Position numbers and translations under genes: made by a program
Shown: piece after piece, positions 4,069-20,738 of the stretch
How the letters are laid out: every line of letters starts with the position of its first letter
Position numbering within the stretch: position 1 is the stretch's first letter
Source: Syntrophaceae bacterium
GTDB lineage: Bacteria; Desulfobacterota; BSN033; UBA1163
Direction: 5' to 3'
DNA length: 48,385 nt
Assembly (NCBI GenBank): GCA_013388645.1
Contig: JACAEV010000077.1
Span: 1-48,385, forward strand
The notes under the pieces: generated by a model
What the model saw: the letters and a program-made list of their open reading frames with translations, nothing else
What the model was told of the DNA's origin: nothing
Databases searched by the model: none

Positions 4069-5583
4069 CTAAAGGTTAAAAATTCCTTTATAGATTCCTT
4101 CCATCAATTCCTCTTCTTTGACAGCTGGTCCCCAGAGAATTGGCCGGATCCCTTTCCATCTTTCTTCGAGAAATTTTTTGAGGAATTCATTGGAATTTCC
4201 ATTGATCCTTCTTAAATCGTGCAATACTCCAAGCAGGCGATAAACACAAAAACCCCCTTGACAAGAACCCTTGGCTAGACGAGTCCGATGAAGGATGTCT
4301 TGTAAATCTTTCAATTTATCCGTCTTTAAAAATTCCTCGACTTCTTTCCTTGAGGTGAGTTCGCAATCACAGAGGGTTTCTACTCGTTCGAATGAGAATT
4401 GTTTGAGTTTTTCTGTCAGGCCGGTAGGCCTATTTGCCTTTGGGAGTGCCTTTAAATGAGTCGAACAGGGCGTGTGCATTCCCATCTTTTTACAAAGGAG
4501 ATCAGAGGTCTTTTCTGCCATTAAACGATACGTCACCAATTTCCCACCCGTGATGGTGATCAAATTTTTTATCCCATCCCTTTCCCCATGGTCGATAAGC
4601 ACAAATCCACGACTGATTGCTCGATCATCTTCTTTCGTTTCAGATTGGAATAAAGGGCGGATGCCTGCATAAGCCCGGATCAATCTGGCTTCTTGAATAG
4701 CAGGGACCAACTTCGATGTCTCTTGAATTAAGAGGGAAACTTCATGCGGCGTCACCTCAAAATTTTCAACTTCTTCCAATCGAACGGAGGTCGTACCCAG
4801 AATGGAAACCGTATGATTTGGGACAACGATGTCGCCATCTGAAGGAGGTCTACATCGATTGATGACATGATGGGTAAGCCTCTGGTTTGTGATCAGCATC
4901 GATCCCTTGGAAAGGGCCATACCGATCTGGAGGCCAGCAAGTTTTAGGAATTGGTTTGCCCAAGCTCCTGTAGCATTGACAATATAGGAGGCCTTTATAG
5001 TGTATTCCTCGCCCCCACCGAGATCTTTGGCCCCCACCTCTTTTATTTTATCCCCATCCAGAATCAGAGAGGTCATTTCTGTATGAAGAAGGATTTTTGC
5101 CCCGTGTTCCTCTGCGTCTCTGGCATTTTCTAAAATCAAGACAAATGGATCAATTGACCCATCCGGAACCTTCACCGCGCTGAGGAGGTTAGGATCGAGT
5201 TCGGGCTCTAATTCAAGGGTTTCGTCACGGGAGAGAAGGGCAGTTTGAATTCCCACTTCATCGCAGGCCCGAAGAAATCTTTCCCGGTAGTCGAATCCAT
5301 CTTCGGGAAGAGAGACGAAAAGACCATCGGTTTCTTCAATACAGTGAGGTGCGATCTTTCTGAGAATTCTATTTTCAGCCATGCACTCCCGGGCTGCTCC
5401 GGGGTCCGTGACCGCATATCTCCCTCCGCTGTGCAAGAGGCCGTGGTTCCGCCCAGAGGCACCAGAGGCGAAATCCCCTTTTTCAATTAAAATAGAAGGA
5501 ATCCCTCGCCAGGACAAATCTCTTGCAATCCCGACCCCTGTTGCCCCTCCTCCAATGATCAACACCTCTGTTATCATCTTCAT
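4069..5583 (-). CDS. glpA: anaerobic glycerol-3-phosphate dehydrogenase subunit A (FAD)
   Basis: Catalytic FAD subunit oxidising sn-glycerol-3-phosphate. The N-terminus EVLIIGGGATGVGIARDL is the Rossmann FAD-binding turn, followed by the DAO-family motif SGRNHGLLHSGGRYAV and a second FAD segment ASYIVNATGAWAN. The C-terminus carries a BFD-like 2Fe-2S domain with cysteines at about 405, 407, 441 and 446 (CDC and CQGGFC). That domain is typical of anaerobic GlpA and absent from aerobic GlpD. Length 504 aa; the start is ATG AAG ATG. First gene of glpABC. The DUF47 gene lies 101 nt upstream in the same orientation. Confidence 0.93.
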   Translation of the reverse strand: MKMITEVLIIGGGATGVGIARDLSWRGIPSILIEKGDFASGASGRNHGLLHSGGRYAVTDPGAARECMAENRILRKIAPHCIEETDGLFVSLPEDGFDYRERFLRACDEVGIQTALLSRDETLELEPELDPNLLSAVKVPDGSIDPFVLILENARDAEEHGAKILLHTEMTSLILDGDKIKEVGAKDLGGGEEYTIKASYIVNATGAWANQFLKLAGLQIGMALSKGSMLITNQRLTHHVINRCRPPSDGDIVVPNHTVSILGTTSVRLEEVENFEVTPHEVSLLIQETSKLVPAIQEARLIRAYAGIRPLFQSETKEDDRAISRGFVLIDHGERDGIKNLITITGGKLVTYRLMAEKTSDLLCKKMGMHTPCSTHLKALPKANRPTGLTEKLKQFSFERVETLCDCELTSRKEVEEFLKTDKLKDLQDILHRTRLAKGSCQGGFCVYRLLGVLHDLRRINGNSNEFLKKFLEERWKGIRPILWGPAVKEEELMEGIYKGIFNL

Positions 5584-5684
5584 TTAGGATATCGATTCAC
5601 TCACAAATTTCCACACCCCTTCAGAAAAAAAGGTGAGCGATGAGACATTCTCATTTCGGTGGATGAAAGTTAAGCCATAGAAGA

Positions 5685-6299
5685 TCAGGTTGTCTTCATC
5701 ACGATGCTGCAGAGTATGTTCGCTGCTTCGTCACTTCGATCGGCCGCATTGCTGAGATGCCGATAGATCTCCCTCATCTTTAGCATATAGACCGTATCTG
5801 TTTTTTTGAAAAGATCGGCAAGGGCTGAATGATAGGCCTTCTCCATCATATTCTCATAAGATTTGGCCTTAACGGCGTGTTCCAAGGCGATGTTCGGATA
5901 GGTTTCTAAAATTTTGACGGCATCATTAATTTCACGGGTTGCCTTTTTCAAAATCTCTACCATTTCTTTCAGATGATCATCAGAAGACACTTCATAAATC
6001 TCCATCTCGTCGACGGTCGAATTGGCATAATCGACGATATCATCGATGGCCCTCGAGAGGGCATAGATATCCTCCCGATCCATGGGGGTGACAAAGGTCT
6101 GATGGAGTTCTTCAACGAGAATTCTCCGAAGTTCATCGGCCTCTCTCTCGATGGTTTTCACTTTATTCGCATTTTCTTGATTTTGGTTTCCGACAAAGGT
6201 CTCCAATGCTTCAATGCCTTCCAGCGTTTTAGAGGACTGGTCCATCAACATCTTATGAAAATTGCTCTCTTTTGGAAAGATCCGGTCCTTTAATCCCAA
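5685..6299 (-). CDS. DUF47 / TIGR00153 PhoU-like protein
   Basis: All-helical 204-aa protein of the PhoU-related DUF47 family. Members usually sit beside Pit-type phosphate transporters and are thought to modulate them. Visible support includes the charged heptad-like helices (LEALETFVGN, EREADELRRILVEEL), the motif TPMDREDIYALSRAIDDIVDYAN typical of the family, and the C-terminal YRHLSNAADRSDEAANIL. No phosphate permease is adjacent. Its place upstream of glpABC could link phosphate handling to glycerol-3-phosphate use, which is inference. It starts at ATG 6299. Confidence 0.88.
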   Translation of the reverse strand: MGLKDRIFPKESNFHKMLMDQSSKTLEGIEALETFVGNQNQENANKVKTIEREADELRRILVEELHQTFVTPMDREDIYALSRAIDDIVDYANSTVDEMEIYEVSSDDHLKEMVEILKKATREINDAVKILETYPNIALEHAVKAKSYENMMEKAYHSALADLFKKTDTVYMLKMREIYRHLSNAADRSDEAANILCSIVMKTT

Positions 6300-6357
6300 T
6301 CTCTTCTTCCTTTCAATTTTCCTCTTCTCGTCACCGATAACTTAGGGAATTTCTCAT

Positions 6358-6386
6358 TTTCTAACGAGATTACAAGCATTTGTCAA
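6358..6386 (-). promoter_or_regulatory. candidate sigma-70 promoter for DUF47-glpABC
   Basis: On the minus strand, TTGACA (6386-6381), a 17-nt spacer, then TAGAAA (6363-6358). It lies about 60 nt upstream of the DUF47 start. The -35 is perfect and the -10 weak. Confidence 0.4.
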
Positions 6387-6450
6387 GGGTGATAATGATT
6401 CCTCCCAGTGGTTGATAACGTATTAGATCTATCATGGAAGAATACAAAAC

Positions 6451-6478
6451 TTGACTTTTAAACCCAATGCAATACAAT
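6451..6478 (+). promoter_or_regulatory. candidate sigma-70 promoter for the PAS histidine kinase
   Basis: TTGACT (6451-6456), 16-nt spacer, TACAAT (6473-6478), placing transcription start about 80 nt before the kinase ATG. It is divergent from the DUF47 promoter. Confidence 0.5.
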
Positions 6479-6567
6479 GGGATCACTTTGAGAACCTGAT
6501 GTCAAATGGTTCAGGCAGGAGGTAAGAGATCTGGTCTCTAGCCCAAAAATTTTTTATCAGATAATTT

Positions 6568-7713
6568 ATGAACATGGAAGAGGAGGAAACGATGGTTGAG
6601 ATTCTAAAAAGCAGATATCATTTCCTCGATTTGGTACAAGTCGCCTTTATCCTTACCGATTCGCACTCAAAAATTCTTTACACCAACCGCCACGCAGAAC
6701 GTCTCTTTGGTTATCCAAGAGAAGAGATGGAAGGGGAGAGGATCAGAATGCTTTTCTTGGATGAGGATTTAAACTATTTTCTTCCCAATATCATCTATCT
6801 CTCCCTTTATAAAAATGGCTTTGAGGGAGAGGCGCTTTTAAGACAGAAGAATGGGATGAAGATATTCGTTCATCTCTATACCACTATGTTTAAGGAGGAA
6901 GGAGAAATTTTTATTTCTTTCTCTTTCCAAGAGATACAACGATTGAAGAAATTGGAGAGGGAAAGATTGGAGATGGAGCGATGGGCCAATCTCGGTATGA
7001 TGGTGGAGGAGATTGCCCATCAAGTTCGGAATCCAATCGTGGCCATCGGAGGGTACACACAGCGCCTTTTGAAGACATTCTCCTATTCAACGAAAAATCA
7101 ATATTATCTCCAACAAGTCCTTAGGGAAACACAGAAACTGGAAACGATGATTCAACGAATTGAGGAGTATGTCTTGATCCCAAGACCTATTTTTCAAAAG
7201 GAAAAGATGGAGGAACTGTTGGAAACTATTCTACAGACATTTTCCAAAGAGATAGCGGAGAAAGGGATATCCCTCAATCTGGAGACGAAGGATTTAAAAG
7301 GGGGAGGAGATTTATTCATTGATCAAAACCTTTTCACTAAGGCAATGATATATATATTAGAAAACAGCATAGAGGCCATTGGCCAAGCTCCGAAAGGAAA
7401 AAAGAAGGAAGTGATCAAGGTCACCCTTTTTGGAGATGAAGAAACGATCGGGGTCTCGATCTCTGATCAAGGGGAGGGAATTCCCAAAAAGAACTTAGTT
7501 CGGATTTTTGATCCTTTTTATTCCACCCGGCCTGATCGGGTGGGATTGGGGTTAACCTTTGTCAAGAAGGTCATAGAAGAACAAGGGGGAAATATTCAAG
7601 TGGAGAGCCGCTTAAAAAGAGGGACGACCATCACCATGACTTTTCCAAAGGACAGGCGTCGAAAATTACGCCGAGAACGAGTTTCTTCCGAATCCATTGA
7701 GAGAAATCATTAA
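6568..7713 (+). CDS. soluble PAS-domain sensor histidine kinase
   Basis: 381-aa cytoplasmic two-component kinase with no membrane segment. An N-terminal PAS domain (about residues 10-125; VAFILTDSHSKILYTNRHAERLFGYP split over its core) is followed by a HisKA dimerisation helix with phospho-acceptor His151 in EEIAHQVRNPIVAIGG. The catalytic ATPase domain shows an N-box ILENSIEAI, G1 SDQGEGIP, F-box FDPFYSTR and G2 GLGLTFVKKVIEEQGG. No response regulator gene is adjacent, so this is an orphan kinase whose partner is unknown. The start at 6568 gives MNMEEEE; a second ATG at 6592 is possible. Confidence 0.92.
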   Translation: MNMEEEETMVEILKSRYHFLDLVQVAFILTDSHSKILYTNRHAERLFGYPREEMEGERIRMLFLDEDLNYFLPNIIYLSLYKNGFEGEALLRQKNGMKIFVHLYTTMFKEEGEIFISFSFQEIQRLKKLERERLEMERWANLGMMVEEIAHQVRNPIVAIGGYTQRLLKTFSYSTKNQYYLQQVLRETQKLETMIQRIEEYVLIPRPIFQKEKMEELLETILQTFSKEIAEKGISLNLETKDLKGGGDLFIDQNLFTKAMIYILENSIEAIGQAPKGKKKEVIKVTLFGDEETIGVSISDQGEGIPKKNLVRIFDPFYSTRPDRVGLGLTFVKKVIEEQGGNIQVESRLKRGTTITMTFPKDRRRKLRRERVSSESIERNH

Positions 7714-7808
7714 AATTTTAATCTTCTATCTCCTCTCCATCAGATTCTATAATCCACCTAAAAGAAAGAGAGTTTCGAAAAGCAGCGCCGAAGCATGTCG
7801 ATGAGGCT

Positions 7809-7989
7809 GATTTCAAAAATCATTAAAGGATTTATGATGGTCTCGTAAAAAGTTTCCTAACCCGTCACTCCTGCGAAAGCAGGAGTCCAGAAGTATTTAA
7901 ATTCACTGGATTCCCGTTTTCACGGGAATGACAATAATGGGTGAATCGGACTTTTTGCGATTTCATCATTGATGGATTTTTAAAAATCT
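7809..7989. repeat. palindromic intergenic element (GTCATTCCCG-type, nested hairpins)
   Basis: Two inner hairpins, GTCACTCCTGCGAAAGCAGG (about 7864-7883) continuing into AGTCCAG, and CTGGATTCCCG...CGGGAATGAC (about 7907-7932), are also imperfect complements of each other. Outer arms extend this: ATGATGGTCTCGTAAAAAGT (7834-7853) against ACTTTTTGCGATTTCATCAT on the right, and beyond that GATTTCAAAAATC against GATTTTTAAAAATC. The whole is therefore an inverted repeat of about 180 bp. I recognise the hairpin core as a widespread repeat in deltaproteobacterial genomes. It has no coding content and looks like a non-autonomous MITE-like element. Confidence 0.75.
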
Positions 7990-8001
7990 CTGGGAGTGGG
8001 G

Positions 8002-8029
8002 TTGACATCCAGACTTCACAGGTTAAAAT
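8002..8029 (+). promoter_or_regulatory. candidate sigma-70 promoter for the BFN-domain gene
   Basis: TTGACA (8002-8007), 16-nt spacer, TAAAAT (8024-8029), about 85 nt before the start at 8116. Confidence 0.45.
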
Positions 8030-8115
8030 AAGTTTGAATTTCAAAACCCAATAAAAAAGAGTAAATTGGAATCATTTCAGATCGAGAGGTCATTCGATTT
8101 AAGTTTTCTAAAGGG

Positions 8116-8622
8116 ATGAATATGGAAAGAGGGCTGATGGAAGTGAAAGTCATGGGTATTGTCGTAGACCCCAAGGCGTCCAACCCTGTGGTCGTTTTGG
8201 TAGACCTCTCTGGTCAGAAAGCTTTGCCAATCTGGATCGGGGTTTTTGAGGCGGAGGCCATCTCAAGAGGGATTGAAGAGGTGGTTACGCTTCGGCCCAT
8301 GACACACGATCTCATGAAACAGATTTTAGATACTTTTCAGGTCACCCTTACCCGAGTGGTCATTCATGATTTAAGGGATAATACTTTTTACGCTCACCTT
8401 TATCTTGACGTAGATGGCGAAGAATTAATTGTGGATAGTCGCCCCAGTGATGCAATCGCCCTTGCGGTCAGAGTCAAGGCTCCCATTTTTGTTACCGAAT
8501 CAGTGATTGAAGCCACCAAACAGATGGGAATACTTGCCAGTAATTTTTTGGAAGAAAGGGATGAGCTGAAAACCATTATTGAAAATATGAAACCAGAAGA
8601 CTTTGGAAAATATAAAATGTAA
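8116..8622 (+). CDS. bifunctional nuclease (BFN/DUF151) domain protein
   Basis: 168-aa protein of the DUF151 family. The signature is clear: MEVKVMGIVVDPKASNPVVVL near the N-terminus (split here over strands one and two), LPIWIGVFEAEAI, RPMTHDLMKQIL, and VDSRPSDAIALAVRVKAPIF. Members are reported as nucleases or are linked to stress and redox responses. The role in bacteria is not well settled. A C-terminal acidic helix (ERDELKTIIENMKPEDFGK) matches the usual family tail. An internal ATG (MEVKVMG, seven codons in) is the position where most homologues begin and may be the true start. It stands alone with its own promoter candidate. Confidence 0.9.
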   Translation: MNMERGLMEVKVMGIVVDPKASNPVVVLVDLSGQKALPIWIGVFEAEAISRGIEEVVTLRPMTHDLMKQILDTFQVTLTRVVIHDLRDNTFYAHLYLDVDGEELIVDSRPSDAIALAVRVKAPIFVTESVIEATKQMGILASNFLEERDELKTIIENMKPEDFGKYKM

Positions 8623-8754
8623 CATCATGTCTTATTACACCCTTCTATAGATAGAAAAGTCCTACCTTCTATCTCTATTCACCAAATGCATTTAACCTAA
8701 CTGAATTCGAATACTTTCTTCCCGTTGACATTAATTTTCTCTTTTTGACAATTT

Positions 8755-8767
8755 GTCATTTCGATGA
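8755..8767. promoter_or_regulatory. short dyad TGACAA-T-TTGTCA upstream of the HTH/hybrid-kinase operon
   Basis: Inverted repeat with 6-nt arms and a single central base, about 90 nt upstream of the sigma-54 match. This is where an enhancer-binding or repressor site could lie. No protein can be assigned. Confidence 0.25.
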
Positions 8768-8855
8768 AGTTAAAGGTGAAGCAAACACCTCTTTCGAAAA
8801 TGAAGCTTATGTTTAAAATTAAGTAGTTAAGAGGTTAGAAGCCTATCAGTTTTAT

Positions 8856-8871
8856 CGGCATATATTTTGCT
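8856..8871 (+). promoter_or_regulatory. candidate sigma-54 (RpoN) -24/-12 promoter
   Basis: CGGCATATATTTTGCT has GG at 8857-8858 and GC at 8869-8870, separated by exactly 10 nt, with the TTGC of the -12 box intact. Expected transcription start is near 8882, so the in-frame ATG at 8880 would lie at or before the mRNA start. This supports the downstream start at 8910 for the HTH gene. Confidence 0.6.
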
Positions 8872-8909
8872 TAAAATACATGAAAATCAAAGCAAATGGA
8901 GGTAATTCA

Positions 8910-9092
8910 ATGTTCTTAATGGAAAAGGATGTGGTGTTAACGACGGATGAGGCAATTGAATATTTAAAGATCTCCAAGCCCACATTTTTGAAATACATTC
9001 GCCACGGAAAGATCAAGGCGATTAAAGCTGGAAAAGGGTGGAGGATTCTTCAATCTGAATTAAACCGGTTCTTACTGGGAGAAGTGAACTGA
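8910..9092 (+). CDS. excisionase-family HTH DNA-binding protein
   Basis: 60-aa MerR/excisionase-like helix-turn-helix protein. TTDEAIEYLKISKPTFLKYI is the typical first helix and recognition helix, followed by RHGKIKAIKAGKGWRI, the family's wing. The start at 8910 is set by GGAGGT at 8898-8903 (6-nt spacing); the ATG at 8880 has no site and precedes the predicted mRNA start. Its stop (TGA 9090-9092) overlaps the ATG of the giant hybrid kinase at 9092, so the two are translationally coupled. It may be a DNA-binding output or autoregulator of that kinase operon (inference). Confidence 0.82.
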   Translation: MFLMEKDVVLTTDEAIEYLKISKPTFLKYIRHGKIKAIKAGKGWRILQSELNRFLLGEVN

Positions 9093-12000
9093 TGATCAAA
9101 GGAATAAGAAATAGCCTCACATTGAAATGGATGATTTTTTCTGTACTCTTAGCCATCCTCCCTCTTTTCATTGCAGGTCTTAGTATCATTCAAATCTACC
9201 AAGAAAATTTGAAAGAATCGATCATTGGAATTGAGGAAATGAAGGCAACCATGGTGGTTGAGAGGACAGAAGCTTTTTTTGAAAAGATCACCCTCAGTCT
9301 TCTCACCATGGCTAATGATAAAGATTTTAAAACCGGACGTTTTACTCCTCATGTTCAACATCATTTAGAGAATCTCCTTTGTCAAAATGATTCTATTTGG
9401 GAAGTGACCCTTTTAGACCATCAAGGGAGGGAGAGGGCGAAGGTTTCGAAATACAGAGTGATCGCTCCTGATGATTTAAAAAGTGAAGCGAAGAGCGAGA
9501 TGTTCGGAATGGCTTCTAAGGGTAAAACGTATTATGGAGATTTTTATCTCACACGAGATATCGTCCCCACTATGGGAGTCGCCGTTCCTGTGGAAGAATA
9601 TAGAGGGAAGCCCGTTGGGGTTTTGAGCGCCAAGGTTCACCTTCGATATCTGTGGAACCTTATTCCTCAAATTCAAATCGGTAAAGAGGGATTCACTTAT
9701 GTCGTGGATCGGGAAGGAAATCTCATCGCTCATCCGGATACACGAAGAGTTTTGTTAGGTTTAAATTTGAGATCGCTCCCCGTCGTGGACCAGGTTGCAT
9801 CTGGAAGAGAGGGCCATTTGGAATTTGATCATCCAGAGGGAGAGAGAGTTTTATGTGTCTATAAATTGATGAAAAAATTAGGCTGGGGCGTGATTGTTCA
9901 AGTCCCCGTAAAAGAAGCTTATCAGCCCACCCGGCAGGTGGCTCATACCGCCTTCCAATGGATGTTAATTGGGTTAGGCATTGCGGTGATCCTGAGTCTG
10001 CTCTTAACAAGGAAGTTCACTCTCCCGATTAAACGTCTATCCAATGGAATGGGAGAGGTCGCCAAGGGGAATTTAGATACCTATCTTCAATCTACTACAA
10101 AGGATGAGGTGGGGCTTCTTACAGAATCTTATAATCAGATGATTTGGAATTTAAAACAGTCTCGAGAAGCCCTGAGAGAGGCCGAGGAAAGATATCGAAG
10201 GATTTTCGAAAATTCTAAAGATATGATTTATATCACCTCGCTTGATGGGAACTTTATCGATGTCAATCAGGCTGGGGTGGAGATGCTTGGTTATCAAAAT
10301 AAAGATCAATTGGTGAGGATTTCCACAAAAGATATTTTTTGTTCCCAAGGAGACCGAGAAAAATTCATGTATGAAATAACCAATCGAGGATTTGTCAAGG
10401 ATTTTGAGACCAAATTGAAGAGAGCGGATGGAACAATCATCGACACCCTCATGACCATAACCCTCAGAAAGGACGAGGAGGGCCATATTCTTGGCCATGA
10501 GGGCATCATCAAAGATATTTCCTTCCGAAAAAGGATGGAGAATGAATTGGTCCAAAGAAAAGAGGAGGCTCAAGCCCTTTATGATATGAGTGTCCTCATC
10601 AATCAGACCTTGGATCTGAATAAGGTTTTACCCGATGCTTTAGATCGGGCTTCCTGTCTCACGGGGTTTGAAATGGGAGGAATTTATTTATTTAATCAAG
10701 ATGAAAATTTACTCGAATTAAGATTTAATAAGGGATATACATCCACATTTGTTGAACGTGTCAAGGTGATCCCATTTGGAGAGGGCATTGCCGGAAAGGC
10801 CCTCCTAATGAAGGAGCCAATTATCTCCTCCATCGATGAATATCCAACTCCTCAACTCCTTCCCTTTTTAAGGGAGGAGGGGATACAATCATTGGTGGGT
10901 ATTCCACTAATGAGCAAAGGAAAAGCCATCGGTGCGATTACCCTTGCGAGCCGTAACCTCCATGCCCTGGTTTCCAGGGAGGTCAAGTTGTTAGAAAGTA
11001 TTGGAAATCAGGTTGGTCTTGCCCTTGAAAACGCTCAGCTCTTTTCAAATGTCACCCAAGCCAAATCGGAATGGGAAACCACCTTTAATGCCGTCACGGA
11101 CCTCATCACCATCAGAGATAAAGATTATCAAATCATTCGTGCCAATCAGGCAGCGTTTGAACGTTATGGGTTAAGGCCAGAGCAGATGATAGGAAAGAAG
11201 TGTTTTGAAATTTTTCACCAAAGTGACCAACCGTGTGATGGATGTTATGTGGCTAAGACTTTAGAAACAAAGAGACCTGCGGCCGGGGAAAGAGAGAGTA
11301 AATATTTAAAAGGTATTTTTCAATATTATACTTTTCCTGTCTTTGATGGAGAAGGGGAAGTCGTGGGAGTGGTCGATTTAGCCAGAGAGATAACTGAAGA
11401 GAAACGACTGGAAATTGAAAAGGAGGTGGTCAATCAGATTAACCAAATCCTTGCCTCCAGCCTCGATGTGAGACAGGTCATCAACGCGGTCCACTCGGAA
11501 ATCAAAAAGGTATTCAATTCGGATAGGATGACGATCACCCTTTTGGATGAAGGAGGCAGGGGGTTCCGATATTTTGCTTTGGAAAAGGATTATGATGCTA
11601 AAGAATTGGTGGGTGGTGTCATTTATCCAAAAGAAGGAACGCCCATTTCAAAAGCATTGGAAATAGGCCTGCCTGTGATCGTGCCGGATACCGAGAAAAG
11701 CAATTCTTGGATTGATCAGAAAGTACTGAAAGAGGGGATCCGTTCTACATTGGTATTTCCATTAGAATGTAGAGGGAAAATTATTGGAACGGTGAACTTT
11801 GGAAGCAAAGAGATCCAACACTTTTCAGATCATCATGTTAATTTCCTCCGTTCCATCGCATCAGGGCTGGCGATTTCCATTCAAAACGCTCTCCTCTTCG
11901 AAGAGACAAAAAAAAGAGTGGATGAATTAACTCTCCTTTATGAGATCATGAAAATTTCTGCCTCCTCTTTGAATTTAGACCAAATGCTGAGAGAGGTGAC

Positions 12001-13894
12001 TCACTGTCTGAATGACTTTTTCAAGTTTGAAGCCTTTGGCATGGCCTTGCTTGATGAGAAAACGAAGAAATTGATCATTCATCCCTCCTTCCTGGGCCAT
12101 CCAGTTAAAGAGATAGAAAGTATGGACCTCGGGTTAGGAAGGGGAATTACCGGATGGGTGGCTGAAAGAGGTGAACCCCTATTAGTGAACGATGTCCGAA
12201 AGGATTCCAGGTATCTTCTCTATGACGAGACGATCCACTCCGAATTGTGTATTCCTTTGAAGGTAGGCCCCAAAGTGATTGGGGTACTGGATGCCCAGAG
12301 TAGAGCTTTGAATGCCTTTTCTGAAGATCACCTCCGTTTACTTAGCATCATCGGAGGACAGTTGGCCATTCTCATTGAAAACCTTCGGCTTTACGAAGGG
12401 ATTAAACAGTCGGAGGAAAAATATCGAACCGTCATCGAAGGGGCCCATGAAGGGATCTGTGTGATTGGAATGGATAATCGTTTTAAATATGTCAACAGAA
12501 GAGAGGCGGAATTGCAAGGTCTCCCTCAAGAAAAATTGGTGGGGATGGATTTTCGTGATTTTCTGGATGAAAAGAGCAAACAATTCATGGATGAACGATT
12601 CACTCGGCGGGGGAACAAAGAGAAATTACCCCCTCGTTTTGAATTAAATATACTCCGAAAGGATGGAGAGATTCGAAATGTTGAAGTCCATGCGAGAGTG
12701 ATCAAAGATTCAACGGGGGAGACCGATTATGTCGTTTTCTCCAAAGATATCACTGAAAAGAAAAAAATGGAGGAACAGTTGCTTCAGGCTGAAAAACTCC
12801 GGGCCCTTGCGGAGATGGCCAGCGGGGTTGCCCATGATTTCAATAACGCCCTGGCCGCCATCCTTGGCAACACCCAACTCCTGCTTTTCTCCATTCAAGA
12901 TGAGGAGTTAAAAGAAACCTTGAAAACAATCGAAAAAGTGGCCAAGGACAGTGCTCAGACCGTGCGACGGCTTCAAGATTTTACACGGAAAAAGGTTCAT
13001 GAAGAACTTTTTCAGGTCGATATCAATTCGGTGATTAGAGATACCATTGAGATGACCAAACCAAAATGGAAGGATGAAGTCCAGAAAAGAGGAAGTCATA
13101 TTGAAATCGTGTTAAGGGTTGAAGAAGTTCCTCCTGTATTAGGCACATCATCTGAATTGAGAGAAGTCATGACCAATATGATTCTCAATGCCATTGAGGC
13201 GATGCCTGAGGGTGGAAGAATAGAGATTCGGACATTTCAGAGGAGGGAAAAAGTCTTGATCCAAATTTCCGATTCTGGAATGGGAATTGTGGAAGATATC
13301 CGGAAAAAGATTTTTGAGCCCTTTTTCACAACGAAACCATTTACCAATACCGGACTCGGATTAAGTATGTCTTATGGAATTATAAGAAGGTTTGGAGGAG
13401 AGATCGAGGTTCAAAGCGAGGTTGGGAAAGGAACGACCTTTACCATCGTCTTACCCATTGAAAAAGGTTTGAAGGAAGAAACCTCCCCTCCCTGTTCGCC
13501 TAAAAAGGGGAAGGAAGCTCGTATTCTGGTGATCGACGATGAGGAGTTTGTCCGGAATGTACTTTCCCGGACACTCGCTCAATTTCACCATCAGGTCACT
13601 TTGGCGGAGGATGGGGAAAAGGGCATTCAACTCTTCAGGGAAAAGAAATTTGATATGGTTTTGACTGATTTGGGAATGCCTGGGATGTCGGGATGGGAGG
13701 TTTGCCGAGTCATAAAAAGCTTGAGCCCAGAGACCCCAGTCGGAATGATAACAGGATGGGGGACAGAAATAAGTCGGAGTAAAATGGAAGAGTACGGTCT
13801 TGACTTCTTGATCTCCAAACCCTTTGATTTCAACCAGGTTTTAAATGTGGTGGCTGAAACGATGGCCTCCAATGAAGAACGATATTTATCTTGA
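9092..13894 (+). CDS. giant multi-sensor hybrid histidine kinase (Cache-HAMP-PAS-GAF-PAS-GAF-GAF-PAS-HisKA-HATPase-REC)
   Basis: 1600-aa membrane sensor. TM1 about 13-35, an extracytoplasmic dCache-type domain about 40-280 (GFTYVVDREGNLIAHP), TM2 about 287-308, HAMP about 309-360. Cytoplasmic modules follow: PAS about 363-485, GAF about 495-650, PAS about 658-775 with cysteines in DQPCDGCYVAKTL, GAF about 780-935, GAF about 945-1100, PAS about 1107-1230. HisKA carries phospho-acceptor His1248 (GVAHDFNN). The ATPase has NMILNAIEAMPEGG, DSGMGI and TGLGLSMSYGI. A C-terminal receiver has Asp1526 (LTDLGMPGMSG) and a lysine in ISKPF. All catalytic residues are present. The HTH gene upstream overlaps by one base. 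The ligand is unknown; proximity to livJ suggests an organic solute but is weak evidence. Confidence 0.93.
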   Translation: MIKGIRNSLTLKWMIFSVLLAILPLFIAGLSIIQIYQENLKESIIGIEEMKATMVVERTEAFFEKITLSLLTMANDKDFKTGRFTPHVQHHLENLLCQNDSIWEVTLLDHQGRERAKVSKYRVIAPDDLKSEAKSEMFGMASKGKTYYGDFYLTRDIVPTMGVAVPVEEYRGKPVGVLSAKVHLRYLWNLIPQIQIGKEGFTYVVDREGNLIAHPDTRRVLLGLNLRSLPVVDQVASGREGHLEFDHPEGERVLCVYKLMKKLGWGVIVQVPVKEAYQPTRQVAHTAFQWMLIGLGIAVILSLLLTRKFTLPIKRLSNGMGEVAKGNLDTYLQSTTKDEVGLLTESYNQMIWNLKQSREALREAEERYRRIFENSKDMIYITSLDGNFIDVNQAGVEMLGYQNKDQLVRISTKDIFCSQGDREKFMYEITNRGFVKDFETKLKRADGTIIDTLMTITLRKDEEGHILGHEGIIKDISFRKRMENELVQRKEEAQALYDMSVLINQTLDLNKVLPDALDRASCLTGFEMGGIYLFNQDENLLELRFNKGYTSTFVERVKVIPFGEGIAGKALLMKEPIISSIDEYPTPQLLPFLREEGIQSLVGIPLMSKGKAIGAITLASRNLHALVSREVKLLESIGNQVGLALENAQLFSNVTQAKSEWETTFNAVTDLITIRDKDYQIIRANQAAFERYGLRPEQMIGKKCFEIFHQSDQPCDGCYVAKTLETKRPAAGERESKYLKGIFQYYTFPVFDGEGEVVGVVDLAREITEEKRLEIEKEVVNQINQILASSLDVRQVINAVHSEIKKVFNSDRMTITLLDEGGRGFRYFALEKDYDAKELVGGVIYPKEGTPISKALEIGLPVIVPDTEKSNSWIDQKVLKEGIRSTLVFPLECRGKIIGTVNFGSKEIQHFSDHHVNFLRSIASGLAISIQNALLFEETKKRVDELTLLYEIMKISASSLNLDQMLREVTHCLNDFFKFEAFGMALLDEKTKKLIIHPSFLGHPVKEIESMDLGLGRGITGWVAERGEPLLVNDVRKDSRYLLYDETIHSELCIPLKVGPKVIGVLDAQSRALNAFSEDHLRLLSIIGGQLAILIENLRLYEGIKQSEEKYRTVIEGAHEGICVIGMDNRFKYVNRREAELQGLPQEKLVGMDFRDFLDEKSKQFMDERFTRRGNKEKLPPRFELNILRKDGEIRNVEVHARVIKDSTGETDYVVFSKDITEKKKMEEQLLQAEKLRALAEMASGVAHDFNNALAAILGNTQLLLFSIQDEELKETLKTIEKVAKDSAQTVRRLQDFTRKKVHEELFQVDINSVIRDTIEMTKPKWKDEVQKRGSHIEIVLRVEEVPPVLGTSSELREVMTNMILNAIEAMPEGGRIEIRTFQRREKVLIQISDSGMGIVEDIRKKIFEPFFTTKPFTNTGLGLSMSYGIIRRFGGEIEVQSEVGKGTTFTIVLPIEKGLKEETSPPCSPKKGKEARILVIDDEEFVRNVLSRTLAQFHHQVTLAEDGEKGIQLFREKKFDMVLTDLGMPGMSGWEVCRVIKSLSPETPVGMITGWGTEISRSKMEEYGLDFLISKPFDFNQVLNVVAETMASNEERYLS

Positions 13895-13975
13895 CCTGTT
13901 TCCTTCCCATACTCTTCCTCTTCCCCAAGGCTTTACCCTAAGTACTTCTTCAGTTATGGGGTAATATTTGACCTG

Positions 13976-14142
13976 AAAGGGTCGGGAAATTCTCCCTCCA
14001 AAACCTCGTAAAGCGGTCTTTAAGATCATACCGATCGGTTATTCTACTATTGGCATCGTGATTTTGGGAATTCAACCCTATAGAGGTGATGAGTTAGAGG
14101 TTTCGCTTCAAGGTTTTTACGGAAGAACCTCCCGACCCTTTT
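13976..14142. repeat. long imperfect inverted repeat (about 167 bp) upstream of livJ
   Basis: The left arm begins AAAGGGTCGGGA at 13976 and runs about 45 nt. The right arm ends TCCCGACCCTTT near 14140, and its complement tracks the left arm through AGGTTCTTCC, AAAACCT and AAGCG. Between the arms is a unique A/T-rich segment. There is no open frame. It lies in the 358-bp gap between the hybrid kinase and livJ, which otherwise holds only a smaller TACCC/GGGTA dyad around 13935-13963. It resembles a MITE-like element. Confidence 0.55.
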
Positions 14143-14252
14143 CTGCTTCAATAACCAGGGATTACTCCCCCTTTAATTTTCCGGTTGATTTTTCCTCCTT
14201 TTTGTAATAAATAAAAGGGCATCTTTTTTAAAAAGAAAGGAGGAGTCTCATT

Positions 14253-15422
14253 ATGAAAAGAGGGATTTTCCATTTTTGTGCCTATGTTTTTGCGGTCCTT
14301 TTTCTTGCCTTTTCTGTTCACGCTCAAGATATCCCCATCGGATTTTTTGCGCCCATCACAGGGCCTGCGGCCGCCGACGGTGCGAGTGCAAAACATGCAG
14401 TCGAACTGGGATTGAAAGAGGTGAATGATGCAGGTGGAATTAAAGGGAGAAAAGTAAATCTCATTATTTATGATGATCGGTTGAATCCCCAAGAAGCGGT
14501 TGCCATCGCCAATAAATTAATCGAAAAAGATAGGGTAGTAGGTGTGGTCAGCGGTTCTTATAGTGGTCCGACTCGAGTCACTGCCCCTATTTTCCAAAAA
14601 GCAGGAATTCCTATGGTGGCAGGCTATGCAGTACACCCGGATGTGACCTGGGATCCCAAGGAAAAGAAAGTCAATGATTTTTGCTTCCGAAATGGGTTTC
14701 TCGGCGAAATCGAAGGAGCAGCGGCTGCTGAATTTGCTGTGAAGAATTTAAAAGCTAAGAAGATTTCCATCATCTCGATGGATAACGATTTTGGCCGGGC
14801 CATCTCTGCTGGGTTCGCCGAGCGATCAGAGAAATTGGGAGCGTCGATTTTAACCAAGCAAATGTATAAGTTTCCTGGTGAAAAGGACTTTCGTCCCTAT
14901 TTGACAAGAATCAAAGAAGGCAATCCAGATTTGATTTTTGCAGCAGGATATTATAATGAAGCCGCTTCCATCGTCCGGCAGGCGAAGGAGTTGGGAATCA
15001 CCAGCCAGATCATGGGTGAGGAAGGGTTTGATTCACCGAAATTTATAGAGATAGCAGGGCCAACCGCTGAAGGTGTCATCATTGCGACCAATCTCGATCG
15101 AGATGACCCAAGGCCACTGGTCCAGAATTTTCTGAGGAATTACAAAAAAGCTTATAATGAAGAGGCCGATATGGTCGGAGCTTCCAGTTATGACGCTTTT
15201 ATGATTCTTGTTAACGCCATCTCTAAAGCGGGGACAGATCCCAAAGCCATTCAGAAGGCCCTCCTTGAGACCAAAGATTATAATGGTTTGACGGGAAAAA
15301 TCACCCGTTTTGTTCAGGGCGAAGTGGTCAAACCCGTTCAGATTCAAGTGGTCAAAGACGGGAAGTTCCGTCGTCTCGGGGTGGTTGATAATCCAGAAGT
15401 CATCACACCGCCCATCAAATAA
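14253..15422 (+). CDS. livJ: ABC transporter substrate-binding protein, branched-chain amino acid (LivJ/K) family
   Basis: 389-aa periplasmic type I binding protein. Signal peptide MKRGIFHFCAYVFAVLFLAF then SVHA, with cleavage probably before QDIPIG. The mature part has the family opening IPIGFFAPITGPAAADG, the central GVVSGSYSGPTRVTAPIF ligand-site region, and DNDFGRAISAGFAERSEKLG. A strong AAAGGAGGAG site lies just upstream. First gene of livJHMGF, which runs into hutU-hutH, so histidine or a related amino acid is a plausible ligand. That is inferred from context; binding-protein sequence alone does not fix the ligand. Confidence 0.92.
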   Translation: MKRGIFHFCAYVFAVLFLAFSVHAQDIPIGFFAPITGPAAADGASAKHAVELGLKEVNDAGGIKGRKVNLIIYDDRLNPQEAVAIANKLIEKDRVVGVVSGSYSGPTRVTAPIFQKAGIPMVAGYAVHPDVTWDPKEKKVNDFCFRNGFLGEIEGAAAAEFAVKNLKAKKISIISMDNDFGRAISAGFAERSEKLGASILTKQMYKFPGEKDFRPYLTRIKEGNPDLIFAAGYYNEAASIVRQAKELGITSQIMGEEGFDSPKFIEIAGPTAEGVIIATNLDRDDPRPLVQNFLRNYKKAYNEEADMVGASSYDAFMILVNAISKAGTDPKAIQKALLETKDYNGLTGKITRFVQGEVVKPVQIQVVKDGKFRRLGVVDNPEVITPPIK

Positions 15423-15424
15423 AA

Positions 15425-15552
15425 GAATAGTAATCAGTGGCCAGTTATCAGTTTCTATATATGGTTCCCTTCTCTTCTAAAGATGAGGAAGAGGAGGGAA
15501 CCATATTGTGGTTTAATGACTGTTCACTGCTCACCGCCTACTGGTTACTGGA
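15425..15552. repeat. CAGTGGTCAG-type repeat flanking a 19-bp hairpin between livJ and livH
   Basis: A strong stem, left arm 15459-15477 (begins ATATGGTTCCC) with right arm 15488-15506 (ends GGGAACCATAT), is 19 bp long with one G-U pair and a 10-nt loop. It is flanked by degenerate units AATCAGTGGCCAGTTATCAG (left) and ACTGTTCACTG, TACTGGTTACTGG (right), which are roughly complementary. No T-run follows, so it is probably not a simple terminator. It could protect livJ mRNA or reduce read-through, a common design where the binding protein is needed in excess. Confidence 0.65.
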
Positions 15553-15558
15553 TTTAAT

Positions 15559-16416
15559 ATGCTCTGGCAACAACTCGCTAATGGAATTGCCATTGGAAGC
15601 GTCTACGCCCTGATCTCACTTGGGCTGACGATGGTTTATGGAATCCTACGTATCTTGCATGTGGCTCATGCCGGCATTTACGCTTTGGGGGCTTATGTTG
15701 GTCTGTTTTCTTTCAAGCTCGTCGGCAATTTCTGGATTTCTTTGATGGTCGGAATGGCTGGAGCAGCCATTGCCGGATATCTTGTGGAAAGGTTTTTGTA
15801 CACGCCCCTTCTTCATTTGCCGAGGATCGCTCCCCTTATCGTTTCTATTGGCCTTTTCACCGCCTTGGAGGAAGCTTTTCGTATCGTTGCTGGACCTCAT
15901 ACGCTGACTTACAACGCCCGTATTGGTCTGGGTGATCTATCCATCGGGAGCTTCCGTCTTACCGAGACACAGATTCTCATCCTCTTCATCACCATTATCA
16001 TCTTAATTTTTCTCTGGGCCTTCCTGACAAAAACCCGTACCGGGTTAGCGATGAGGGCATGTGCTCAGGACCCAGAGACCACCTCCTCTTTCGGGGTGAA
16101 TGTCAGCGCAATCATTGCAATCAATTTTATTATTGGATCAGCCATGGCTGGTGCGGCAGGGGTTTTGATCGGGGTCTATGATAACCAAGTTTGGCCGACG
16201 ATGGGCAGTATCCCGGCCTATAAAGCTTTAGCTATTGTTGTTCTCGGAGGATTGGGAAATATTCCAGGGACGGTGCTTGCATCAATCGTCGTAGGGCTGG
16301 CAGAGACGTTTTTCATTGGTGTTCTCGCTATTCCTTTTCCGAGAGATGCCGTGGCTTTCGTGGCCATGATTTTAGTTTTAATGTTCAAACCCTATGGGCT
16401 ATTAGGAAAAGCATAA
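15559..16416 (+). CDS. livH: branched-chain amino acid ABC transporter permease, LivH family
   Basis: 285-aa integral membrane permease with about eight hydrophobic segments. Family motifs visible: NGIAIGSVYALISLGLTMVY at the N-terminus, the cytoplasmic coupling region RTGLAMRACAQDPETTSSFG, and AIVVLGGLGNIPGTVLAS near the C-terminus. It begins at ATG 15559 with no strong Shine-Dalgarno. Partner of LivM and of the LivG/LivF ATPases just downstream. Intact and of normal length. Confidence 0.93.
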   Translation: MLWQQLANGIAIGSVYALISLGLTMVYGILRILHVAHAGIYALGAYVGLFSFKLVGNFWISLMVGMAGAAIAGYLVERFLYTPLLHLPRIAPLIVSIGLFTALEEAFRIVAGPHTLTYNARIGLGDLSIGSFRLTETQILILFITIIILIFLWAFLTKTRTGLAMRACAQDPETTSSFGVNVSAIIAINFIIGSAMAGAAGVLIGVYDNQVWPTMGSIPAYKALAIVVLGGLGNIPGTVLASIVVGLAETFFIGVLAIPFPRDAVAFVAMILVLMFKPYGLLGKA

Positions 16417-16472
16417 CCATTTCGTGAGTCGGGAGGCTTAAACTTCACCCCTTACGCCTTACGGTATTAAAG

Positions 16473-17339
16473 ATGATCAGCGGATACCTCATCACAATCC
16501 TGATCACTATCCTCATTTATGCTATGCTGGCGCATAGCCTCAACCTCATCACAGGGCATGCGGGCCAGATCTCACTGGGGCATGCGGCCTTCTTCGGGAT
16601 CGGTGCCTATAGCTCGGCGATGCTCTATACGGAGGCTGGGTTTCCCTTCTGGATTTCTGTTCCTCTGGCCGCTGTGGTCGCAGGAATCATCGGAGCCCTG
16701 CTTGGAATCCCTTGCTTGCGAGTACGTGATGATTTTCTGGCCATCACTACGATGGGAATCAATTTTGTGGTAGAGGCCATTTTCCTCTATATTCCCTTTT
16801 TTGGTGGAGCCATGGGAATCGGGGGAATCAACCTTCCTAAATGGTTTGGACGCGACATGACCAAGCCTGAATATTTCTTTATTATTCTTATCACCTTCGG
16901 CTTACTCCTCCTTGTGGATCGTCAACTGGGTCGCTCATGGATCGGTTTGGCATGGGCTTCGATTCGGGAGGATGAACAGGCGGCAGGGGCCATGGGGGTG
17001 GATGTGGTTCGTTTTAAAGTTTTGGCATTTATCTTAGGGAGCGCTATCGCTGGATTAGCGGGGGGATTCTACGCTCATTTCTTAACCTTTATCATGCCGC
17101 AGAATTTTGGTTTTGGACAATCCATTGTCATCCTTTGCATGGTCGTCTTCGGCGGCATTGGGACCCGTTGGGGCCCAATCATTGGGGCCGTGATTCTGGG
17201 AATTTTGCCGGAAATCTCCAGGCCTATCATGGAATACCGCATTTTGATCTATGGGGTTCTCCTTTTGGCCATGATGCGATTTCAACCAGGTGGTCTATTA
17301 GGGGCGGAGTCGATTCTTTCAAGAACTTTTCGGCGATAG
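16473..17339 (+). CDS. livM: branched-chain amino acid ABC transporter permease, LivM family
   Basis: 288-aa permease, second membrane subunit of the importer. Conserved LivM features: HSLNLITGHAGQISLGHAAF, IPCLRVRDDFLAITTMGI, and the coupling helix WASIREDEQAAGAMGVD, followed by VVFGGIGTRWGPIIGAVIL. It starts at ATG 16473. The 56-nt spacer before it contains short direct units CCTTACGCCTTACGG, another degenerate repeat type. Normal length and intact. Confidence 0.93.
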   Translation: MISGYLITILITILIYAMLAHSLNLITGHAGQISLGHAAFFGIGAYSSAMLYTEAGFPFWISVPLAAVVAGIIGALLGIPCLRVRDDFLAITTMGINFVVEAIFLYIPFFGGAMGIGGINLPKWFGRDMTKPEYFFIILITFGLLLLVDRQLGRSWIGLAWASIREDEQAAGAMGVDVVRFKVLAFILGSAIAGLAGGFYAHFLTFIMPQNFGFGQSIVILCMVVFGGIGTRWGPIIGAVILGILPEISRPIMEYRILIYGVLLLAMMRFQPGGLLGAESILSRTFRR

Positions 17340-17369
17340 GTTATTGCTTTTGGCGTCAGGGGTGAGTGG

Positions 17370-18116
17370 ATGACTCTTTTAGAGGTGAAGGCTCTTAGCA
17401 AAGAATTCGATGGCCTTCGAGCTTTAGATGGGGTGAGTTTTGCCGCTCGGGGGGGCGAGATCCTGGGAATCATTGGTCCGAATGGAGCAGGTAAAACCAC
17501 CCTCTTCAACATTATCTCAGGGATTTATCCTCCCTCGGGGGGAGAAATCAATTTTGAGGGGAAGTCCATTCTTCGTTTGAAGCCACATCAAGTCAGTCGT
17601 TTGGGCATTGGCAGGACTTTTCAAATTGTCCGCCCCTTCCAAAATTTGGATGTGGAGGCCAATGTTATGGTTGCTTTTGGACATCGGGTCTATCCATCTC
17701 TGTGGAAGTCCGCTGGCTCGGTTTGGCAGCCGGAAATTCAGAAGGAGGTTCAAGATCTCATTGATCGAGTTGGCCTTCGGCCTCATTTAAAACAAATAGC
17801 CAAAACCCTTCCTCTCGGCTTTAAAAAACGTCTTGAAATCGCACGTGCCTTAGCACTCCAACCCCGTCTTCTTCTCCTCGATGAGCCCTCCGCAGGCTTG
17901 CGGTTTGAAGAATCCCTCCAGCTCATGGGACTCATCCGTCAGGTATGCGATCAAGGGATTGGTATTCTTCTCATCGAGCACAACATGCATGTTGTCATGG
18001 ACCTTTGCAAGCGAATTGTCGTTCTGGATCACGGCTCAAAGATTGCTGAAGGTTCTCCTGAGGAGATACGCTCAAACCCTTTGGTCATCCAGGCTTATTT
18101 GGGGAAGGAGGCGTAA
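17370..18116 (+). CDS. livG: branched-chain amino acid ABC transporter ATPase, LivG family
   Basis: 248-aa ATPase. Walker A GPNGAGKTT at about residues 36-44; GRTFQIVRPFQNLDVEANVM is the typical LivG Q-loop region; Walker B is RLLLLDEPSAGL; the switch histidine is in LLIEHNMHVVMDL. Odd point: the ABC signature, usually LSYGQQR-like in LivG, reads LPLGFKKRLEIARAL, so the canonical Ser/Gly-Gln core is altered. The C-terminal IRSNPLVIQAYLGKEA is standard. It ends immediately before livF (adjacent codons). Confidence 0.92.
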   Translation: MTLLEVKALSKEFDGLRALDGVSFAARGGEILGIIGPNGAGKTTLFNIISGIYPPSGGEINFEGKSILRLKPHQVSRLGIGRTFQIVRPFQNLDVEANVMVAFGHRVYPSLWKSAGSVWQPEIQKEVQDLIDRVGLRPHLKQIAKTLPLGFKKRLEIARALALQPRLLLLDEPSAGLRFEESLQLMGLIRQVCDQGIGILLIEHNMHVVMDLCKRIVVLDHGSKIAEGSPEEIRSNPLVIQAYLGKEA

Positions 18117-18824
18117 ATGTTAAAGGTGCAAGATATTGAAGTTTCTTATGGCGAGTTTCTAGCCCTCAGGGGGATCAATTTCACAGTGGAGGAGGGAGAG
18201 TTAGTTACAATCATTGGAGCAAATGGGGCGGGCAAAAGTACGATTCTTCGGGCCGTCATGGGTTTGGTGAGATGCCGTAAGGGGAATGTCTTTTTTCAGG
18301 GAGGGGATATCACATTCAGTCCGTCTTACCAAAGAGCCCGTTTGGGCATTAGCCTTGTCCCAGAAGGGCGTAAGATCTTCCCTGACCTGACCGTGGCTGA
18401 AAATCTATTGATGGGCGCCTATACCCAAAGGGACAAAAAAGCGCTTCCCTCCTACATGGAAGAGGCCTTTACTCTTTTTCCAGTGTTAAAAGAAAGACGA
18501 AATCAAGTGGGAAAAACCCTCAGCGGAGGGGAGCAGCAGATGCTCGCCATTGCTCGGTCGCTCATGTCCCAACCACGAATGATCTTGATGGATGAGGTTT
18601 CCTTAGGTTTGATGCCGATCTATGTCGAAGAGACATTTAAAGTCATCGAGAATCTCCACCGACGGGGAGTGACCATTCTCTTGGTTGAACAGAACGCCCG
18701 CAAAGCCCTTGGAGCCGCAAACCGGGGCTATGTGCTTGAGACAGGAGAAATTGTTTTAAGCGATTCGAGCCAAAGGCTGGCCTTAAATCCTCAGGTCCAG
18801 AAAGCCTACTTGGGTGGTACCTAA
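18117..18824 (+). CDS. livF: branched-chain amino acid ABC transporter ATPase, LivF family
   Basis: 235-aa ATPase. Walker A GANGAGKST, LivF-type LVPEGRKIFPDLTVAENLLM, intact signature TLSGGEQQMLAIARSLM, Walker B RMILMDEVSLGLMP (Val in place of the usual Pro after Glu), and VEQNARKAL containing the switch region. It starts at ATG 18117, directly after the livG stop, with AAGGAGG overlapping the livG end. Last transporter gene before hutU, 77 nt away. Confidence 0.93.
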   Translation: MLKVQDIEVSYGEFLALRGINFTVEEGELVTIIGANGAGKSTILRAVMGLVRCRKGNVFFQGGDITFSPSYQRARLGISLVPEGRKIFPDLTVAENLLMGAYTQRDKKALPSYMEEAFTLFPVLKERRNQVGKTLSGGEQQMLAIARSLMSQPRMILMDEVSLGLMPIYVEETFKVIENLHRRGVTILLVEQNARKALGAANRGYVLETGEIVLSDSSQRLALNPQVQKAYLGGT

Positions 18825-18901: not shown

Positions 18902-20623
18902 ATGGAAAAGAGAAAAGTGAAGCTTAAAGAAAGGGTAGAGACCTTAACCGGGGTTCAAGTGGGAATTAAGGCCCCTCGAGGGTCAAAAGTCTCCTGTAAA
19001 AGCTGGCAAACGGAGGCGGCACTGAGGATGTTGATGAATAATCTCGATCCTGAGGTGGCTGAAAAACCCGCCGAGCTGATTGTTTATGGAGGTACTGGAA
19101 AAGCGGCCAGGAGTTGGGAGGCTTATCATTTATTGGTTAAGTGTTTGAGAGATTTAGAAGAGGATGAGACATTACTCGTCCAATCAGGGAAACCTGTCGG
19201 GATCTTTAAAACTCACAACGATGCCCCTCGCGTCTTAATTTCCAATTCCATGTTGGTTCCCCAATGGGCCAACTGGGAGAAGTTTAGGGAATTGGAGGAA
19301 CTCGGACTTACGATGTATGGCCAGATGACCGCAGGAAGCTGGATCTATATTGGCACGCAGGGAATTCTTCAGGGGACTTATGAGACATTTGCCTCCGCTG
19401 CCAAGAAACATTTTGGAGGATCCTTGAAAGGGAGGCTCCTTCTTTCAGCAGGCCTTGGAGGAATGGGAGGAGCTCAGCCTTTGGCGGCGACCATGAATGA
19501 AGGGGTTTTTTTAGGAGTGGAGGTTGATCCAGAAAGGATCAAACGGCGTCTTGAGACCGGATACTTGGATGTAATGGCGGATCGCTTGGAAGATGCCCTC
19601 ATCATGGCCTTAAGTGCGAAAGAGAAAGGAATTCCAAAATCCATTGGCCTGGTAGGAAATGCGGCAGAGATTCATCCAGAGATTGTGAAGAGAGGGATTG
19701 TTCCGGATCTGGTGACAGACCAGACTTCAGCTCACGATTCATTAAATGGTTATGTCCCTGCTGGATTGACGCTTGATGAGGCTCTTGAACTCCGGAGAAA
19801 AGATCCACAAACTTATATTCGTCGGGCCATGGAGTCTATGGCCCTTCATGTTCAGGCGATGCTGGAATTACAGAAGAAGGGTTCGATTGTCTTCGACTAT
19901 GGAAATAATATTCGAGCCCAAGCATTCCAGGCGGGAGTGAAGGAGGCCTTCAGCTATCCCGGATTTGTTCCTGCCTTTATCCGCCCTCTCTTTTGTGAAG
20001 GGAAAGGACCATTCCGATGGGCAGCTCTATCAGGAGATCCTGAAGATATCTATAAAACTGATGATGCCATTCTCAGGGAATTTCCAGACGATGTGTCTTT
20101 AGCAAGATGGATTCGATTGGCGAAGGAGAAAGTAAAATTTCAGGGATTGCCAGCTCGGATCTGTTGGCTTGGCTATGGGCAGAGGGCTCGGATTGGAAAA
20201 GTCTTTAACGAGATGGTTGCCAAGAAAAAATTGAAGGCTCCCATTGTGATCGGAAGAGACCACCTAGATAGTGGTTCGGTGGCTTCTCCCTACCGCGAGA
20301 CAGAAGGGATGAAAGATGGGAGTGATGCCATTGCTGACTGGCCTATCTTGAATGCTCTTCTCAATGTAGCTGCAGGTGCGACCTGGGTTTCAGTCCATCA
20401 CGGGGGAGGAGTGGGGATTGGCTATTCAATTCATGCGGGGATGGTGGTGGTCGCAGACGGAACCAAAGAGGCGGAAAAGAGATTATTCAGGGTGTTGACC
20501 ACCGATCCCGGAACCGGTGTGATGCGCCATTCTGATGCTGGATACGAAGAGGCGATTGATACGGCAAGACAAAAAGGAATTAAAATTCCAGGGGTGACGA
20601 TTTACCAGCGAGAAGATTCGTAA
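18902..20623 (+). CDS. hutU: urocanate hydratase
   Basis: Converts urocanate to 4-imidazolone-5-propionate with tightly bound NAD+, second step of histidine degradation. Family motifs are clear through the 573 aa: [69 protein letters not shown], and the region [14 protein letters not shown] with its cysteine. [20 protein letters not shown] and [12 protein letters not shown] follow. It starts at ATG 18902 after GAGGGAAGAG. Situated downstream of the liv importer and upstream of hutH. Soluble cytoplasmic enzyme, apparently complete. Confidence 0.96.
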
Positions 20624-20624
20624 A

Positions 20625-20730
20625 TGAGGAACACTGGAAGGCTGGAATATTGGAATAATGGCAAATAAAAATAAATAAAAAAACCATTTATTTTTTCATT
20701 TTTTCATTCCGAAACCCATTATTCCATATG
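20625..20730. repeat. GGAAT-type degenerate inverted repeat between hutU and hutH
   Basis: The left arm (about 20625-20662) contains GAACACTGGAAGGCTGGAAT then ATTGGAATAATGG. The right arm (about 20700-20729) has TTCATTCCGAAACCCATTAT then TCC. The middle is A/T-rich. Same family as 422-516 and 45301-45433. It lies within a presumed operon. Confidence 0.6.
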
Positions 20731-20738
20731 GGGAGAGT

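Follow-up and report, generated by a model that had tools for sequence, protein, structure and literature searches.

A BldC/Xis-like mini-protein gene behind a conserved sigma-54-type promoter precedes sensory operons in a Syntrophaceae lineage

Excisionase-type HTH proteins are by routine taken for marks of mobile elements. Among the described proteins that resemble by fold the one analyzed here, BldC of Streptomyces, a stand-alone MerR-like winged HTH, binds direct repeats head to tail (PMC5859096), and the excisionase RdfS represses its own promoter (PMC11963761). In the window, meaning the whole analyzed stretch of 48,385 nucleotides from the 3.95-Mb draft genome of a Syntrophaceae bacterium (nearest named relatives: the MAGs Syntrophaceae bacterium UBA2188, UBA2208, and UBA1163, the first of which is placed by NCBI in Thermodesulfobacteriota, Syntrophia), a gene for such a mini-protein stands between a sigma-54-type promoter and the gene of a giant hybrid sensor kinase. 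Because the same tiny HTH and the same promoter type precede many signalling operons in relatives, these operons point to an undescribed regulatory circuit and not to a mobile-element leftover. We give roughly an even chance to the reading in which the HTH mini-protein is a small accessory or feedback regulator, with predicted DNA binding, in a sigma-54 sensory and c-di-GMP regulon.

At full length, the open reading frame of the HTH gene extends over 8880–9092 of the forward strand (70 aa). The GC element of its promoter lies at 8869–8870, which would set transcription from ~8882, past the ATG at 8880, and therefore favors the ATG at 8910; the product is thus probably 60 aa long (8910–9092, forward strand), with a Shine–Dalgarno sequence, GGAGG, at 8898–8902 on the same strand. 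The excisionase-type assignment given to this product in a preliminary description of the locus was borne out by matches to HTH_17 (Pfam, E = 5.3e-14) and to the ‘excisionase family’ TIGR01764 (NCBIfam, E = 1.5e-12). The AlphaFold2 model exhibits a winged HTH (pLDDT 87.8), for which the top Foldseek matches were BldC–DNA complexes (6ama/6amk, TM 0.69–0.71) and the RdfS excisionase, with Pukovnik Xis also among the similar structures; at E values of 0.01–0.05, the relation of the HTH to BldC and RdfS is to be read as a likeness of fold, kinship being unproven. A profile search with the HTH against PDB chain sequences returned a single weak match, Pukovnik Xis (E = 0.03), and BldC was absent at E ≤ 1. 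Across an alignment of 23 HTH sequences, 12 positions were invariant and 12 more nearly invariant, and in loci with both genes the HTH preserved 70–90% identity to the window as against 41–58% for the kinase sensor.

The stop codon of the HTH gene overlaps the ATG of the membrane hybrid sensor kinase gene (9092–13894, forward strand) in the TGATG at 9090–9094, as previously described. The reported kinase length of 1600 aa also held, whereas the reported count of ten modules did not, since Pfam delineated 11, in the order dCache_1, HAMP, PAS, GAF, PAS, GAF, GAF, PAS, HisKA, HATPase_c, and Response_reg. Inspection of motifs and hydropathy accompanied these domain calls; the H-box, N-box, and G-boxes are present, and the receiver, rightly regarded as intact, bears the acidic, phospho-Asp, Thr, and Lys segments.

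The −24/−12 promoter preceding the HTH gene (8856–8871, forward strand; GG at 8857–8858, GC at 8869–8870) is not above chance by score alone, given that 13 sites scored at least 18.5 on the two strands of the window, while five resampled windows contained 6, 7, 9, 11, and 13. It is nonetheless credible because of its conservation: 60 of the 62 HTH homologues, drawn from 23 related genomes and forming related, non-independent rows, had a GG-N10-GC element scoring 17 or more at a similar distance. Over 200 rounds of resampling (first-order Markov sequences, not exact dinucleotide shuffles), the number of rows with such an element averaged 1.4 and never exceeded 6, and among 202 other genes preceded by gaps, 11 had one. 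All 14 HTH–kinase pairs exhibited promoter scores of at least 18, and the sigma-54 promoter proposed earlier is upheld by this conservation. The 62 rows correspond to 66 minus four with phmmer E ≥ 1e-12 (L008, L009, L117, and L118); the scan took in 45–130 nt upstream of the LTT codon in HTH genes and 10–130 nt upstream of the start in control genes. Weights and threshold (17) were our own choices, modelled on the general sigma-54 consensus, and the threshold was fixed once the first scores had been listed. The genome encodes one RpoN (a single Sigma54_DBD match), has 31 matches to PF00158 of enhancer-binding proteins (25 below 1e-50), and contains 50 sites of the −24/−12 pattern versus 6 of the reversed pattern. 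Before livK, the best scores (13–16 in seven loci) fell under the threshold of 17.

A dyad, TGACAATTTGTCA (8746–8758), lies 111 nt before the GG and is, judging by its conservation, a likely enhancer (UAS). In most kinase-type loci, the dyad TGACANNNTGTCA occupies the same place, at 111–115 nt before the GG, and it is absent from two of the 13 kinase-type promoters with enough sequence (L075 and L077). Over all homologous upstream regions (59 of 60 rows, L063 being omitted as too short upstream), the dyad was exact in 5 and within one mismatch in 13, the resampled means being 0 and 0.26. Only three TTGACANNNTGTCA sites were found in this genome, namely that of the window, one ahead of a PilZ-like gene, where a sigma-54-like site follows at almost equal spacing, and a third without such a site. 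The PilZ-like gene (near 14443 of G000:C111; L251) is preceded by the dyad, an AGTTAYGA element, and the sigma-54-like site, spaced as in the window. The same three elements recur before a PilZ-like gene of a same-genus genome (G002, L262). As a general enrichment in family genomes, the dyad was rejected, with 13 exact TTGACANNNTGTCA sites versus 7 sites of the reversed pattern in 17 genomes; the dyad alone is not enriched there, and its notable feature is the fixed spacing to the sigma-54-like site.

An IHF-like site, AATTAAGTAGTTA (8817–8829, forward strand), has one mismatch to the sequence that we take to be the IHF consensus, WATCAANNNNTTR. Sites within one mismatch were present in 34 of 60 homologues (resampled mean 9.2, maximum 15), in many of them about 40 or 30 nt upstream of the GG; elsewhere in the genome, 12 of 30 sigma-54-like sites had one as well. 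Of 21 HTH promoters of the kinase and Hpt types, 14 contained the AGTTAYGA element within one mismatch, versus 1 of 30 other sigma-54-like promoters, and both PilZ promoters carry it in about the same place as the HTH promoters do. The element might be a site for IHF, for the HTH mini-protein, or for another protein. Direct repeats of the BldC kind were sought around the conserved AGTTA element of the promoters, where no periodicity at 6–15 nt emerged (maximum +1.8 s.d.).

A conserved pairing of the HTH with hybrid kinases, which the preliminary description had proposed to look for in relatives, was found in 14 of the 17 family genomes on the same strand, directly in 11 and in three with a gene for an ABC_sub_bind-type binding protein in between (assigned by Pfam for one locus and by phmmer for the other two). 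At the level of sequence, neither outcome that the preliminary description named as refuting, a pair unconserved in relatives or no RpoN dependence, came about. As for the remaining genomes, the same-genus G001 keeps the HTH and its promoter, with the dyad absent, hutU next, and no kinase; the kinase of G006 is at a contig edge; and no pair was found in G016. In two further genomes of the genus (G003 and G004; L059 and L061), the kinase is in place and its sensor region is unmatched to the window Cache domain along its length, as if it had been swapped. The window pair is flanked upstream by genes for a PAS histidine kinase (6568–7713) and a bifunctional-nuclease-domain (BFN) protein (8116–8622), and downstream by Liv-type ABC transporter genes (14253–18824) and by hutU (urocanase) with the gene of a hutH-like aromatic amino acid lyase (18902–22268), all on the forward strand and assigned by Pfam and synteny; among the Liv genes, the Pfam match (Peripla_BP_6) concerns the first, and the second to fifth carry putative names, given by recognition. 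The pair often precedes liv–hut (histidine use) genes, and the order PAS-kinase/BFN/HTH/kinase/liv/hutU was observed in several relatives, not all. For the upstream PAS kinase, the best NCBIfam match was AtoS, below the cut-off, and no response-regulator gene stands directly beside it. Neither integrase nor transposase was detected by Pfam among the 11 window proteins scanned, in agreement with the earlier remark that no mobile element is nearby.

The HTH subfamily heads a broad collection of operons, comprising HEAT with HD-GYP (13 loci), Hpt with kinase, REC-HD, REC-GGDEF, PilZ, CutA1, GmrSD/HNH, and aconitase operons, among others. In 48 of the 62 HTH loci versus 22 of 194 control genes, a signalling gene followed on the same strand at a distance of up to 1.5 kb, or the HTH itself was fused to PilZ; HEAT was counted as signalling because an HD-GYP gene comes next in most such loci. 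In three loci, the HTH gene is followed by a PilZ gene, and three HTH_17–PilZ fusions are encoded (L094, 2514–3053; L101, 1961–2500; L102, 8557–9096; Pfam analysis for L101 only), each behind a sigma-54-like element. All three fusions conserve RxxxR and NxSxxG, which we take to be the c-di-GMP motifs of PilZ. The two promoter-less homologues among the 62 (L115 and L116, f3 homologues from two class-level relatives) are located directly behind c-di-GMP-I class riboswitches instead (1762–1840 and 1752–1830, respectively; 67 bits for RF03167 and 57.7 bits for RF01051).

Other HTH loci were observed in the same genome and beyond. At L006 (G000:C133, 4670–9236), a close paralogue of the HTH gene lies behind a sigma-54-like element and is followed, in a defence-like setting, by genes for a GmrSD/HNH protein and a helicase-like protein of 916 aa. 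A more distant HTH_17 mini-gene (L008; G000:C141, 140–2314) stands directly before REC-kinase, receiver, and pilin/secretion-like genes, and an HTH_17–receiver fusion of 190 aa is encoded at L009 (G000:C29, 1155–1727); in other family genomes, HTH matches were found in open frames of about the length of the latter. In Desulfobacterales MAGs, more distant homologues are extended at the N-terminus, stand among different genes, and for the most part show no clear sigma-54 element.

The ties to c-di-GMP suggest, as a tentative possibility, that the HTH mini-protein provides a c-di-GMP circuit with its contact to DNA, which it would bind according to the c-di-GMP level as an in-trans partner of the co-regulated PilZ protein. 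Such a partnership would be seen in cis in the three motif-bearing fusions, and is consistent with the PilZ genes following HTH genes in three loci, the riboswitches before two homologues, the HD-GYP, GGDEF, and EAL partners of the subfamily, and the promoter type common to the window operon and the PilZ-like gene. The window operon itself, however, has no c-di-GMP domain according to Pfam, an Rfam scan of 5500–15500 gave no match and thus no riboswitch in that region, and the fusions and riboswitches come from sister families, none from this genus.

It is unlikely that the HTH mini-protein serves the window kinase as a dedicated DNA-binding output, the option contemplated in the preliminary description, with the receiver touching and governing it directly. 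The adjacency and overlap of the two genes are conserved, and the same genome has a more distant HTH_17 fused to a receiver; yet the window HTH is without a receiver domain, the same subfamily and promoter type head operons devoid of kinase or receiver, and G001 retains the HTH without the kinase. As the subfamily heads kinase-free operons, many of them devoted to c-di-GMP turnover or PilZ, we regard the HTH as not dedicated to the window kinase, which in turn needs no private HTH output. Slimmer is the chance that the HTH gene is a short leader, only tuning translation of its follower through coupling. It does come first in its operons and overlaps the follower at kinase-type loci, but many loci exhibit gaps in place of overlaps, its 12 invariant and 12 nearly invariant positions make it better conserved than the kinase sensor, and HTH–PilZ fusions exist. 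An excisionase or mobile-element remnant is scarcely credible, as the HTH_17/TIGR01764 match and the fold similar to those of RdfS and Pukovnik Xis are set against stable synteny in the family, a conserved sigma-54 promoter, and the lack of an integrase among the scanned neighbours.

The accessory or feedback regulator reading is supported by the conserved −24/−12 element, dyad, IHF-like site, and HTH–kinase pair, by the RpoN, the enhancer-binding proteins, and the genome-wide use of this promoter type, by the equally spaced dyad ahead of PilZ-like genes of two genomes, by the frequency of signalling genes downstream of the HTH, by the BldC/RdfS fold, and by the repression that RdfS, a relative by fold, exerts on its own promoter (PMC11963761). 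It is weakened by the lack of direct-repeat periodicity near the promoters, the several possible owners of the AGTTAYGA element, the two kinase-type promoters in which no dyad is present (L075 and L077), and the two promoter-less f3 homologues. Starting from the promoter structure, pairing, family, and fold, as established on sequence evidence, we infer a course of events in which RpoN-polymerase and an enhancer-binding protein on the dyad TGACAATTTGTCA would open the promoter, the parts of which are conserved, with IHF-like bending presumably taking place between dyad and promoter. The HTH mini-protein and the kinase would be made together, in tight coupling, and the former would bind its own and related sigma-54 promoters, setting the dose of the sensory proteins encoded behind it; autoregulation, as raised in the preliminary description, may be part of this. 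The kinase may detect a periplasmic signal, perhaps tied to amino acid (histidine) uptake via the adjoining liv–hut genes, and its phosphate would reach first the receiver of the kinase itself and then a partner whose gene lies elsewhere. More speculatively, and with the balance of probability against it, lineage-specific mini-regulators of BldC/Xis fold, each with its own enhancer–IHF–sigma-54 promoter ahead of a sensory or c-di-GMP operon, might form one network in which HTH and PilZ partners, fused in some relatives and separate in others, read c-di-GMP on DNA and tune production of giant sensor kinases. The subfamily in its entirety has the look of one domesticated to head sigma-54 sensory operons, with several independent c-di-GMP ties, and, if this is true, a very small promoter–HTH unit has been copied ahead of many sensory modules. 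The HTH–PilZ fusions permit a direct test of whether c-di-GMP controls DNA binding by a BldC-like winged HTH.

In the literature covered on excisionase, HTH_17, BldC, or PilZ proteins with sigma-54 or histidine kinases, a coverage outside which most subscription journals fall, no such operon family is described. The RdfS/Xis excisionases have their HTH_17 family and predicted fold in common with the window HTH, which, unlike them, resides in a chromosomal sensory operon where no recombinase or mobile element was seen. BldC is alike in size, with 68 aa (PMC5859096) against 60 aa here. The predicted fold is alike as well, as the Foldseek TM values indicate, whereas the direct-repeat signature was not detected near the HTH promoters and the PDB profile search gave no BldC sequence match at E ≤ 1. 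We know of no sigma-54 setting or kinase partner for BldC. Relative to the promoters served by sigma-54 and enhancer-binding proteins, the window preserves the usual order of dyad, IHF-like site, and −24/−12 element, and differs from the usual sigma-54 operons in coding for a sensor with an HTH mini-gene in front. The kinase has the HisKA–HATPase–REC core in common with CckA/AtoS-like hybrid histidine kinases, NCBIfam matches being far below the curated cut-offs, and departs from them in its long Cache/PAS/GAF array, in its companion HTH, and, in three relatives, in the periplasmic binding protein gene located between the HTH and kinase genes.
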